DNA from: Phycisphaeraceae bacterium
Lineage (GTDB): Bacteria > Planctomycetota > Phycisphaerae > Phycisphaerales > Phycisphaeraceae
Assembly (NCBI GenBank): GCA_020851465.1
Contig: JADZCR010000017.1
Location: 1-64,000 of the forward strand
Direction: 5' to 3'
Length of the DNA: 64,000 nt
Numbering within the stretch: the stretch's first letter is position 1; the number at the start of each line of letters is the position of its first letter. The translations under genes were made by a program, and so were the position numbers. Shown piece by piece: positions 42,764-46,107 of the stretch. The notes beneath the pieces were generated by a model. That model saw only the letters and a program-made list of their open reading frames with translations. It searched no databases and was not told the origin of the DNA.

Positions 42764-43177
42764 ATGGTCGACCCGGAAGAAATGCACAAAGGTTTGAGCA
42801 GGGAGCAGCTCAGATTGGATGGGCTGATCAGTGCGATCCTGCGCGTCGGCATGCTTACCAGCGTGACACTGATCGTGCTGGGGTCCGTATTATGCTTCAC
42901 GCGCGATTCTCGTTATGGATCCGAATCAGGGCTTGCGGCTTTGATGCAGCATAGAGCTTTTCCGCATACAGCAACGGCAGTCTGGAGGGACGCGATTCAC
43001 GGTGGTGGGATGGGTTTAGTGATGTTAGGCGTGCTGGTCATGGTGGCGACGCCGATTCTACGCGTGATCGTGTCAATCATTGCGTTTGCTTGGGAAAGCG
43101 ATGTCGTTTACACGTTGTTGACGGCTGCTGTTCTGGGGTTACTGTTGGTTGCTTTGATCGCGGGTAAAGCGGGATGA
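42764..43177 (+). CDS. DUF1634 membrane protein
   Basis: 137 residues with three membrane segments (about 25-45, 78-100 and 113-132). ILRVGMLTSVTLIVLGSVL and GVLVMVATPILRVIVSIIAF match the DUF1634 family, whose members nearly always follow TauE/SafE exporters and are presumed accessory subunits. The start is three bases past the exporter stop. The region 43178-43453 downstream has no recognisable gene or terminator. Confidence 0.82.
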   Translation: MVDPEEMHKGLSREQLRLDGLISAILRVGMLTSVTLIVLGSVLCFTRDSRYGSESGLAALMQHRAFPHTATAVWRDAIHGGGMGLVMLGVLVMVATPILRVIVSIIAFAWESDVVYTLLTAAVLGLLLVALIAGKAG

Positions 43178-43453
43178 GTCTTTCCGTACCGAGTCATTAA
43201 GTTGCGCCGAATTGCAGAAGCAGGCACACAGGTTTCGAGTTCGACTTCTGCATATTCCTATAGGGTTTTCGATTCAATAGCAGCGCATCGCAAAAAAGAA
43301 CCGCGCCGGGCAGCAGGCGTCAGCCACGGCGAGGTTCCGGAGTCAGGAGATAGAGATCCAGTCCAGACACATCCCGGCAATCAACATCCCAGAACCCCTC
43401 ACTCAGGCTTTCTCTGAAATTATTTGAAAGGGTGGAGGAGCTTTCCAACCTGC

Positions 43454-44086
43454 TCAGTAGGTTCTCACCACACCAATGACGATCCCTTGAATTTGGCAGT
43501 CATCTACGATGATCGGCTCGTATTTGTCGTTGGCGGGTTGAAGACGAATACGGCCGCTTTCTTTGTAGAACTTTTTCAGTGTTGCCTCGCCGTTTTCCAG
43601 CAGGGCGACAACAGTTTGGCCGTTTCGCGCTGCGTTGGTGCGTTGAATGATGACGTAGTCACCGTCACGGATTTGCTCGTCGATCATTGAGTCACCACGG
43701 ACCTTGAGGACGTAAGTGCTGCTGGAGGCTCCGAACTCCAGTGAAGTTCTGGTTGGTGGAGCGAAGAGAGATTCGAGGTCGAGCGTCTGGCGATCTTCAA
43801 TGGCTTCGATCGGATGTCCTGCGGCGATGGAGCCAACCAGCGGCAGACGGGTATGGCGTTCCTCGTGAGGAAGCTCAATCTCAGGATTAAGCTCCAAAGA
43901 GCGAGCTTTGTTGGGCTTCCGCGAGAGCGCGCCTTTTTTGATCAGTGCTTCGACGTGCTCGAAGATGGTGACCTTGCTGACCTTCAATTCGTCCGCCAAC
44001 TCCTGCATAGTCGGTGAATAGCCGCGAGCTATACGCAGATCGCGGATCCGAGTGAGGATGTGGAGCTGTTTGGGTGTGAGGTTCAT
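43454..44086 (-). CDS. lexA: LexA repressor (SOS response)
   Basis: 210 residues. The winged helix at 1-65 has the LexA pattern LTPKQLHILTRI, YSPTMQELADELKVSKVTIFEHVEALIKKG. The self-cleavage site is Ala89-Gly90 in VGSIAAGHP; Ser133 in RGDSMID and Lys171 in EATLKKFY form the catalytic dyad. It represses SOS genes until RecA filaments trigger cleavage. GGGAGA precedes the ATG. Two copies of ATGTTCGA, 15 bases apart, cover the start region, and a promoter with a 33-bp dyad lies about 820 bases upstream. Confidence 0.95.
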   Translation of the reverse strand: MNLTPKQLHILTRIRDLRIARGYSPTMQELADELKVSKVTIFEHVEALIKKGALSRKPNKARSLELNPEIELPHEERHTRLPLVGSIAAGHPIEAIEDRQTLDLESLFAPPTRTSLEFGASSSTYVLKVRGDSMIDEQIRDGDYVIIQRTNAARNGQTVVALLENGEATLKKFYKESGRIRLQPANDKYEPIIVDDCQIQGIVIGVVRTY

Positions 44087-44783
44087 GTTCGATCTCCCAA
44101 TGTTCGACGGATGTTTGTCGTGCGGCTGAGTACTGCAAACCAGTCGGGGCCGCTACGCGGGCTAGTTGTACCGCGGCTGGGGATGACGAGGCAGCTACTT
44201 CGTGGAGAGAAGCATGTCGCGGCCGACTGCTTCGATCGGCCGAATCCATCGTGACTCGCCGGAAAGGAATCGGCTGGAAGCTCGAGAGCGTCATGGGTGC
44301 GGCAGCACGATGAGTCTGGTGTGGCTGAGTTGATTTTTCGGTTGAAGATTTCGACGGAGAAGTCAGTAGCCGCGAAAATTCGCGGAGCGAACGCTGCTGA
44401 GCGGCAAGCCAGGCCTCGATCGAAGCCAGAACTGACGCTAAAGCTTCTCGGCTGGTAACACATGCTGCCTGCTGGTGGGCTGACCGTACATTTGGTTGGT
44501 AAATGCCGGGAGCGGTAGAGGACTTTACGGAGTTGTGCTCGAAGACGTCCGCACCGCGCGTCACCGAGACGCGGTTGTCGGCTTGCAACGTCCGAGAATC
44601 GGATGAACCCTCCCGTGGCTTGCGTCTGGGCATCCGGCTGTACCCCGCAAATGAACCCGCAGTTTCGGTATCCGATTGCTGCTCCATGGACTGTCCAACG
44701 CTGCGGAGCAGGTCGTGCCCCTTCACATCGAAGCGAGTTACGAAGTCTCCGCCAGGTCCGATCATGACAAGTGGGATGGCCAT
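43887..44783 (-). CDS. Uncertain reading frame upstream of and overlapping lexA
   Basis: A 298-codon frame reads into the first 200 bases of lexA in another frame. Its first 130 residues look protein-like (AIPLVMIGPGGDFVTRFDVK, EALASVLASIEAWLAAQQ); the last 70, inside lexA, are probably read-through. GGAG lies 11 bases before the ATG. All three minus frames are largely open here, so the evidence is weak, and a shorter or frameshifted product is possible. If real, it would be the first gene of a lexA operon behind the promoter at 44916-44944. Confidence 0.35.
   Translation of the reverse strand: MAIPLVMIGPGGDFVTRFDVKGHDLLRSVGQSMEQQSDTETAGSFAGYSRMPRRKPREGSSDSRTLQADNRVSVTRGADVFEHNSVKSSTAPGIYQPNVRSAHQQAACVTSREALASVLASIEAWLAAQQRSLREFSRLLTSPSKSSTEKSTQPHQTHRAAAPMTLSSFQPIPFRRVTMDSADRSSRPRHASLHEVAASSSPAAVQLARVAAPTGLQYSAARQTSVEHWEIEHEPHTQTAPHPHSDPRSAYSSRLFTDYAGVGGRIEGQQGHHLRARRSTDQKRRALAEAQQSSLFGA
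44085..44107 (-). promoter_or_regulatory. Direct repeat at the lexA start, possible operator
   Basis: ATGTTCGA occurs at 44085-44092 and again at 44100-44107, a period of 15 bases. GTTC/GAAC half-sites are used by LexA proteins of several phyla, as palindromes or direct repeats. The pair covers the lexA ribosome-binding site and start codon, where binding could give autoregulation. The spacing differs from the GTTC-N7-GTTC of alphaproteobacteria. Confidence 0.4.
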
Positions 44784-44906
44784 GGTCTTGTCGTCTCCAT
44801 TGGGGGCTGCGGTTGGCCATGCCCCAACATCTTGGGGATGGCATCCGTGTGTCCGCTCTTGATTCGACGTTCACCATGGCTTCACTTGAAAACTTAAGCA
44901 GTATTT

Positions 44907-44944
44907 GTTTGGTAAAAGGTAGGCTACAAAACACCAAACGTCAA
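44907..44944 (-). promoter_or_regulatory. Promoter with 33-bp dyad upstream of lexA region
   Basis: On the minus strand TTGACG (44939-44944), a 17-base spacer and TACCTT (44916-44921) form a promoter. It is covered by a dyad centred on base 44923: GTTTGGT (44907-44913) and ACCAAAC (44933-44939) outside, GTAG (44919-44922) and CTAC (44924-44927) inside, all exactly symmetric. A repressor bound there would block polymerase. It faces lexA. Apart from this and the terminator at 45086, nothing else is seen in 44784-45142. Confidence 0.55.
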
Positions 44945-45085
44945 GAGAAATGATGAAATATCTTTGTTTCGCATGATTTATGGGGAAAACCAGTGGGAAA
45001 CACGAATTGAACGGTACGGTTTTATCGGGCGAAGATTTGAGTCAAAGTTTTGATGTGGTTGTTGATTTGTACGTTTAAGGCGCAC

Positions 45086-45115
45086 AAAAAAGGCTGGGCT
45101 TTTGACAGCCCAGCC
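45086..45115 (-). terminator. Intrinsic terminator
   Basis: GGCTGGGCT and AGCCCAGCC (45092-45115) form a perfect 9-bp stem with a 6-base loop, followed on the minus strand by six T. It lies 28 bases past the stop of the coiled-coil protein gene (45143-45970) and should end its transcript. Confidence 0.9.
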
Positions 45116-45142
45116 GTGTGTTTGCGAACTCTTTTCGGCTAA

Positions 45143-45970
45143 CTACTCTGACTTTTCTTTTTCGCTGTTTTTGGCGGCTTTCTCTGCAGCTTTCTCTGCA
45201 GCCTTAGCTTCTTTTTTAGTTTGTACGACTTCCTGTTTGATTTCAGTCTTGGCTGTCTTTGGTGCGGCATGTGCCGCTGCGCGTTTCGCGGCCGCAATTT
45301 CTGCTTCTTTTTTCAGTAATTCGCGCTGTTCAGCGGTCAGCACATCAGATTCGATCGATGCTCGGATACCTTTTTTAATCTCTTCCTGTTGCTTGGCGTC
45401 AGCTGCATTGAACTGGGCACCGGCTTCCAAGCACTTCTTTTTGATCTCATCCTTTTGTGCATCGGTGAGTTTGGCAGCATTAAAAGTTCGGGTCATTCCC
45501 GAATAAATACCCAAGCCAGCCCACTTGGCCTTCTGCTCAGGTGTCAGGATCGCCTCGATTTTATCCTTATAGTCCTTGTCGAGGCTGGCCCGCTGTTGCT
45601 TCAGAATACTCAGCTCTTTCTGCTTGGCGGCGCGTTCCGCCTTATCGGTTGTTTCCGCGATGGATTTCTCGATCTCCGTTTTGCGCGAGGCATGCTTGGT
45701 GTCAAACTCAGCTATTGCGGCCTTCTTCTCATCAATCAGCGATTCAAGCTTTGCTAACTGTTCTGGAGTCATGTCAGCTGCGATCTGCGCGTAGCCGCCA
45801 TAATTTTTGATGTTCTTACGGGTGGTCTTGCCGTCGGGTTTCGTGGTCGGTTTTTCTTCAACCGCTTTTGTCTTTGTGGTTGTTGATTTTGCGCCTTCCT
45901 TGGCGAAAACAGCTCCGGTCAGCGGCAAAGCAAACAGGACGGCAACCGCAATCGGGATCAATCGTTTCAT
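45143..45970 (-). CDS. Exported helical protein with LTPEQ motifs
   Basis: 275 residues. The signal peptide is MKRLIPIAVAVLFALPLTGAVFA. The mature protein is Lys/Ala/Glu-rich and almost all helical, with motifs MTPEQLAKLE (about 70), LTPEQKAKW (about 147), LTDAQKDEIKK and LTAEQRELLKK. Such LTxxQ elements are found in Spy/CpxP-like periplasmic chaperones, but the length and low complexity make that a loose comparison. The Lys/Ala-rich tail could bind polyanions. GGAG precedes the ATG at 45970, and a strong terminator follows. Confidence 0.75.
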   Translation of the reverse strand: MKRLIPIAVAVLFALPLTGAVFAKEGAKSTTTKTKAVEEKPTTKPDGKTTRKNIKNYGGYAQIAADMTPEQLAKLESLIDEKKAAIAEFDTKHASRKTEIEKSIAETTDKAERAAKQKELSILKQQRASLDKDYKDKIEAILTPEQKAKWAGLGIYSGMTRTFNAAKLTDAQKDEIKKKCLEAGAQFNAADAKQQEEIKKGIRASIESDVLTAEQRELLKKEAEIAAAKRAAAHAAPKTAKTEIKQEVVQTKKEAKAAEKAAEKAAKNSEKEKSE

Positions 45971-46107
45971 GACAAGCTCCAAAAAAATTTTATAAAGGTA
46001 AATCTAACGCTCACCTATGTTGACAACAGCATAGCAGCCGGGGGTCAGGCAACTCCACTGCATGTCAGTCCGCGCAGAGAAATCCAGTTGCTTGGAAGTT
46101 TATAAAG

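Follow-up and report, generated by a model that had tools for sequence, protein, structure and literature searches.

A dyad overlies the promoter that serves lexA in a 64,000-nucleotide stretch of a Phycisphaeraceae genome, hereafter the window. From sequence comparison we predict that this dyad is the LexA operator of an ORF1-lexA operon in Phycisphaeraceae, built from a half-site that would form an inverted pair at lexA and a tandem one at recA, and we put the probability of this reading at roughly 0.73. It is favoured because the arms are conserved at lexA and because the half-sites are common to recA as well. Of the original prediction, in which a LexA operator was one possibility, what holds is a conserved operator-like site over the promoter serving lexA, with half-sites also at recA; the dyad as such is not the repeated unit.

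The dyad and the lexA promoter

On the minus strand, positions 44944 to 44907 read TTGACG TTTGGTGTTTTGTAGCC TACCTT TTACCAAAC. The dyad was correctly described: GTTTGGT/ACCAAAC and GTAG/CTAC are exactly symmetric about a centre at 44923, span 33 bp (44907-44939) and overlie TTGACG-N17-TACCTT (44944-44916), with the last -35 base included in the arm. The -35 hexamer TTGACG lies at 44939-44944 and the -10 hexamer TACCTT (family consensus TAACGT) at 44916-44921, separated by a 17-bp spacer. The promoter does face lexA, as had been stated, yet the first gene downstream is a separate reading frame, ORF1, and the lexA start lies 858 nt downstream. Four six- or seven-base positions can be distinguished, all on the minus strand. 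The outer left arm is half-site H1, GTTTGG (44934-44939; family GTTYGG), and the outer right arm, directly past the -10, is half-site H3, CCAAACA (44906-44912; family CCRAACA); both are conserved. Eleven bp past H1 is the H2 position, TGTAGC (44923-44928; family nTTnGG), and overlapping the -10 is the H2' position, CCTACC (44918-44923; family GnTAAC), a weak partner of H3 that is partly fixed by the selection described below and resembles an element preceding the recA site. In the window, H2 and H2' are both degenerate. A search against Rfam gave no match across 43000-46100 up to an E value of 5.

Dyad symmetry by itself is no evidence for a real site. The window holds 135 exact inverted repeats whose arms are 7 bases and whose loops are 3-30 long; 20 first-order Markov sequences average 133 (range 106-157). 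With the loop fixed at 19, six were observed and 4.8 expected. Frames of 33 bp with at least 11 of 16 complementary pairs number 28 in the window, the dyad included. The search of the genome for further dyads that had been suggested as a check gave no extra copies above chance: allowing up to three mismatches, the full 33-bp dyad occurs at 91 places, versus 125 for the reversed control, and the repeated unit is instead CCRAAC together with a weak repeat placed 11 bp before it. The sole other copy with one mismatch, an exact TTGACGTTTGG...ACCAAAC match at G000:C12 (L053), sits within a coding ORF that we take to be M20-peptidase-like. We judge the dyad to be real because it is conserved among relatives, not because it is symmetric.

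Conservation was assessed in 110 stretches upstream of lexA, comprising sets of 80 (L167-L246) and 30 (L016-L045) whose organisms partly overlap; the best 80 relatives by lexA are nearly all Phycisphaeraceae, Phycisphaerales or Planctomycetota. Loci were selected by the core promoter only, TTGAC-N18..20-TA[AC][CA]NT, without consideration of the arms, which gave 57 loci, 43 distinct segments and 41 with a 17-bp spacer, the window's own included. These 41 distinct Phycisphaerales promoters include some mutually close relatives. With the first T of TTGACG as base 1, this choice of core holds bases 1-5, 24, 25 and 29 constant and allows only A or C at 26-27; base 6, which it leaves unconstrained, is G in 40 of 41. 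The remaining 53 of the 110 loci fail the strict core, and many of those listed carry CTTGCCGTGCGG...GGGTAACGTNNNCCRAACA or similar.

None of the arm bases 7, 8, 10, 11, 33, 34 and 36-39 was used in the selection. In the left arm, T7 is found in 36 of the 41 promoters, T8 in 34, G10 in 41 and G11 in 39; in the right arm, the counts are 39 for C33, 40 for C34, 38 for A36, 40 for A37, 41 for C38 and 39 for A39. The H2 bases, likewise outside the selection criteria, are T18 in 35, T19 in 36, G21 in 35 and G22 in 38. The conserved elements of the family are thus H1 TTyGG at bases 7-11, a second TTnGG at 18-22, TAAC at 24-27 and CCRAACA at 33-39. The two TT.GG sets lie 11 bp apart, as do TAAC and RAAC, and all four elements are symmetric about base 22, which is position 44923. 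We rejected GTAG/CTAC as a conserved inner tier, as the window has G at base 18 and C at base 22 where the family has the T and G counted above; relatives show TTnGG in its place, 11 bp past the same left-arm letters. A strict palindrome as the binding unit was also rejected: the arms vary independently, with GTTCGG paired to CCAAAC in three promoters, GTTTGG to CCGAAC in six, both C in 13 and both T in three, and the symmetry observed among the 41 is about that given by column composition. Spacing is not rigid either, with one extra base in 2 of the 43 promoters and two extra in L211/L213. In some relatives a CTTGAA precedes the -35 by 15-20 bp.

Search for the half-sites at recA and other SOS genes

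Searching 151 genomes of the order with TTGACGTTYGG-N18..24-CCRAAC returned 32 matches in 31 genomes, against two for the reversed control; by coordinates, 30 lie upstream of lexA, one falls in a coding ORF of the window's own genome and one elsewhere in genome G123. The recA promoters commonly read TTGACA-NNNN-CCGAACA followed by a second CCRAACA past the -10, and this second copy has CCTGAC, CCTAAC or similar 11 bp earlier. In the window's own genome, CCGAACA-N17..22-CCGAAC matches once, at the recA promoter, and its reversed control also once; with one match each, it is therefore the location at recA that matters, not the count. Over 41 genomes the same pattern is noise (124 matches versus 134 for the reversed control). 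A recA pattern that includes the promoter, TTGAC-N-N3..5-CCRAACA-N5-TANNNT, gave 15 matches in 41 genomes and none for its control. By coordinates, 13 of the 15 are at recA and one (G038) is elsewhere; the last is on a short contig of G024, a genome without a called recA; a stretch (L270) served as the G024 recA locus in the matrix test below. All 15 have five bases between TTGAC and CCRAAC, where four to six were allowed, which amounts to an 11-bp step, TGAC-N7-RAAC, although the -35/-10 spacing may contribute to its constancy. A joint pattern of the core common to lexA and recA gave 27 matches in the 41 genomes (14 at lexA, 5 at recA, 8 elsewhere), with two for the control. The window's own lexA and recA sites both miss the joint pattern, its genome's one match being among the eight elsewhere, and the sites of this genome fit the shared patterns less well than those of its relatives. 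What the three composite patterns pick up is chiefly lexA and recA.

Scored with a matrix derived solely from lexA sites, 31 of the 35 recA loci exceed the 95% control level and 17 also exceed the 99% level; those that fall short of both are L077, L078, L092 and L093. The match is on the forward strand at 25 of the 31 and on the opposite strand at six (three recA loci of family f2, L088, L095 and L100), and many forward matches fall on the first recA site rather than the second. Within the window, the lexA site scores 17.2 and is the only position above 9, the site itself being one of the 41 in the matrix. The layout of the half-sites differs between lexA and recA and also between families. 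In family f2, recA (L078-L080, L082) has CCRAACA-N10-TGTTCGG over the -35, a different layout of the same half-site, and the recA promoter of G029 has four half-sites at 11-bp steps. In G031 (L091), a 97% complete genome in which no lexA was found, the region upstream of recA keeps three CCRAACA sites; the missing lexA is probably an assembly gap, since the congener G144 has the gene.

The check upstream of SOS genes that accompanied the original prediction came out in favour at recA, where half-sites are present, and against at uvrA. With the lexA-site matrix, uvrA loci were without the element, 2 of 24 scoring above the 95% control level and 1 of 24 above 99%. For Y-family polymerase loci the signal was ambiguous, the figures being 6 of 30 and 3 of 30; half-site words occur at 6 of the 30, by eye none of them in a composite of the lexA or recA type. 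These two sets of counts are to be read with controls that include stretches of the same Y-polymerase loci, with match starts that are not always gene starts and with some loci cut. The window's own genome has no match to PF00817, the family of imuB/dinB-type genes.

ORF1 and its leader

ORF1, of 298 amino acids plus a stop, is the first gene past the promoter (43887-44783, minus strand) and belongs to an unannotated family that begins MxxPLVMLGPGGDYVTRY. Its end overlaps, in a different frame, codons 1-67 of lexA, which encode the DNA-binding domain (43887-44086, minus strand). By alignment, the N-terminus MxxPLVMLGPGGDYVTRY..G..L is present in 78 of 80 loci (L167-L246); the exceptions are L176 and L238 (cut at contig end), and the match is weak in L207 and L242. 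Two tests bear on the overlap. The ORF1 frame is open through lexA codons 1-64 in 79 of the 80 loci, where 18.3 would be expected open, and in these 79 it ends at +194 to +227; one stop was observed in the overlap frame, against about 135 expected (minimum 103) when synonymous codons were shuffled within each gene 500 times. In the second test, we counted T at the third codon base before AA, AG or GA, the only route to a stop in the overlap frame. It occurs at 1 of 1048 places in codons 1-64, against 490 of 2886 before other letters, and at 188 of 1068 in codons 65-128.

In the part of ORF1 outside the overlap, dN/dS is 0.14-0.46 over 15 chosen pairs, as obtained by simple counting and with some pairs near silent-site saturation. 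Twenty-five members gave no Pfam match below an E value of 0.01, and no sequence relative was found in the PDB up to an E value of 1. The AlphaFold model has a mean pLDDT of 55.6 and is mostly disordered, with only N-terminal strands and a helix at residues 102-141. Three genomes of the order that belong to f2 (L278-L280) have ORF1 as well. The GPGG motif was not seen in 24 loci of other orders (L281-L304), a weak test given that several of these are cut or misoriented; L277, from the window's own family, is negative through the same cutting or misorientation. Taken on its coding signature, ORF1 is in all likelihood a genuine protein-coding gene overlapping the part of lexA that encodes the DNA-binding domain. 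We also consider it quite probable that the operator drives the overlapping pair, and that ORF1, a protein of about 150-480 amino acids detected until now only within the order, has its last ~66 residues read from the codons of the LexA DNA-binding domain. No gene overlapping lexA turned up in the literature covered, which takes in few subscription papers.

Between promoter and ORF1, about 40 nt before the latter, the 5' UTR contains a hairpin, CCCCAAGATGTTGGGG (44822-44837, minus strand). It was followed in a leader alignment (A3) of the window and 26 relatives with the promoter segment, which leaves out L179, L181, L184, L186, L190, L193, L196, L204, L230 and L233. The hairpin is conserved there with some covariation: in these 27 sequences, 78.4% of cells are paired and nine cells are changed on both sides, with one pair going from C-G to A-U in 5 of 27. 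An alternative pairing of TTGGGG with a downstream CCCCAA was rejected, its covariation not exceeding that of shuffles. The second CCCCAA adjoins a Shine-Dalgarno-like sequence. Blocks of GTTTCAAG (44885-44893 in the window, minus strand) and GTCGAA recur from promoter to hairpin in many of the 43 leaders.

LexA and its predicted binding site

The lexA gene (43454-44086, minus strand; PF01726/PF00717) encodes 210 amino acids and is identified by TIGR00498 with 164.6 bits against a cut-off of 110.95. It was found in 148 of the 151 genomes of the order. In 21 LexA sequences, A89-G90, S133 and K171, presumably the self-cleavage residues, are invariant, as is a part of the DNA-binding domain, VSKVT.FEH. 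By its sequence, the gene would encode a self-cleaving LexA repressor. The genome encodes a second S24 peptidase protein (G000:C10:73153-73707, L046) with 28% identity to LexA residues 27-206 and an N-terminus that is, by eye, XRE-type in appearance.

We propose as the binding unit a short direct repeat, a weak half followed by a strong one, TRAC-N7-RAAC, in which the strong half is CCRAACA. At lexA, two such units would face each other with their strong halves on the outside, H1 lying over the -35 and H3 directly past the -10, and the dyad would follow from this arrangement. At recA, two units would stand in tandem 26 bp apart, the first beginning in the TTGAC of the -35, whose TGAC would itself be the weak half, and the second where the -10 ends. 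With a pair of LexA dimers on each promoter, RNA polymerase would be blocked; upon DNA damage, the RecA filament would trigger LexA self-cleavage, and the lexA and recA promoters would open.

Some different regulator, perhaps a second one that responds to DNA damage or stress, could bind the site in place of LexA and control lexA and recA. LexA binding is itself a prediction, the site is unusual, large and variably arranged, and the genome has the second S24-type protein; however, LexA classically targets lexA and recA together, lexA is nearly universal in the order, and VSKVT.FEH is invariant, in keeping with a conserved half-site, so that we consider this alternative unlikely. Less likely still is that the conserved letters are merely promoter elements (a sigma-70 -35, extended spacer, -10 and discriminator) and the dyad incidental. 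The whole site does lie within the promoter, and TTGAC and TAAC/TATCCT are sigma-type hexamers, but the same 6-7-mer stands at recA in other positions and orientations, and we assume that sigma-70 contacts neither CCRAACA past the -10 nor GTTYGG/TTnGG in the spacer. That the site in this genome is a decayed remnant or a chance dyad, as symmetry no higher than chance and degenerate inner half-sites would allow, is the least probable, for its place, promoter and arms are those of its relatives and its matrix score is 17.2.

The site had been called unlike known SOS boxes, which is true only in part, since Gram-positive and alphaproteobacterial boxes have the same GTTC/GAAC core. The alphaproteobacterial LexA box is GTTC-N7-GTTC or GAAC-N7-GAAC (PMC8565304, PMC3323433, PMC3091678), with which the predicted box shares the core and a direct-repeat step of 11 bp (from H1 to H2, and in TRAC-N7-RAAC at recA and lexA). 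The step is conserved, but in the second half TTnGG or TRAC mostly stands in place of GTTC/GAAC, and in the window that half is degenerate. Unlike the alphaproteobacterial box so described, the predicted one has a single weak half per repeat, overlapping the promoter hexamers, two units per promoter, and a conserved half-site to which the flanking CC/GG and a 3' A belong. The Gram-positive box, GAAC-N4-GTTC (CGAAC-N4-GTTCG; PMC3323433, PMC3091678), has the same half-site core, CGAAC, whereas here the halves at lexA face the other way and are 27 bp apart. The consensus of the 41 lexA promoters contains no inverted GAAC-N4-GTTC pair. The verrucomicrobial LexA motif is reportedly built on TGTTC/GAACA, which would make it similar to the half-site here. 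In Acinetobacter, a genus without LexA, the UmuDAb operator is described as 21 bp with arms, a core and two binding sites (PMC11332147); it resembles the present site as a large two-tier SOS operator that can be read as two overlapping or adjacent sites, and differs in both protein and sequence. According to PMC3108266, the E. coli motif is not recognised by the LexA of planctomycetes, and PMC8565304 makes no mention of this phylum. No planctomycete LexA motif was found in the literature covered, again with few subscription papers.

What appears to be new here is a predicted LexA box for a new lineage, with the overlapping reading frame as the more surprising part. With a predicted box, linked to date with lexA and recA, the SOS response of the class can be put to a direct test, and a single half-site used as an inverted pair at lexA and as a tandem at recA would bear on how LexA boxes change between phyla. 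If the overlap is as we propose, a second conserved protein would be physically coupled to SOS control and to the synthesis of LexA, and the LexA DNA-binding domain would be under a second coding constraint, which could help to explain the stability of the LexA DNA-binding region and of the box in these bacteria.
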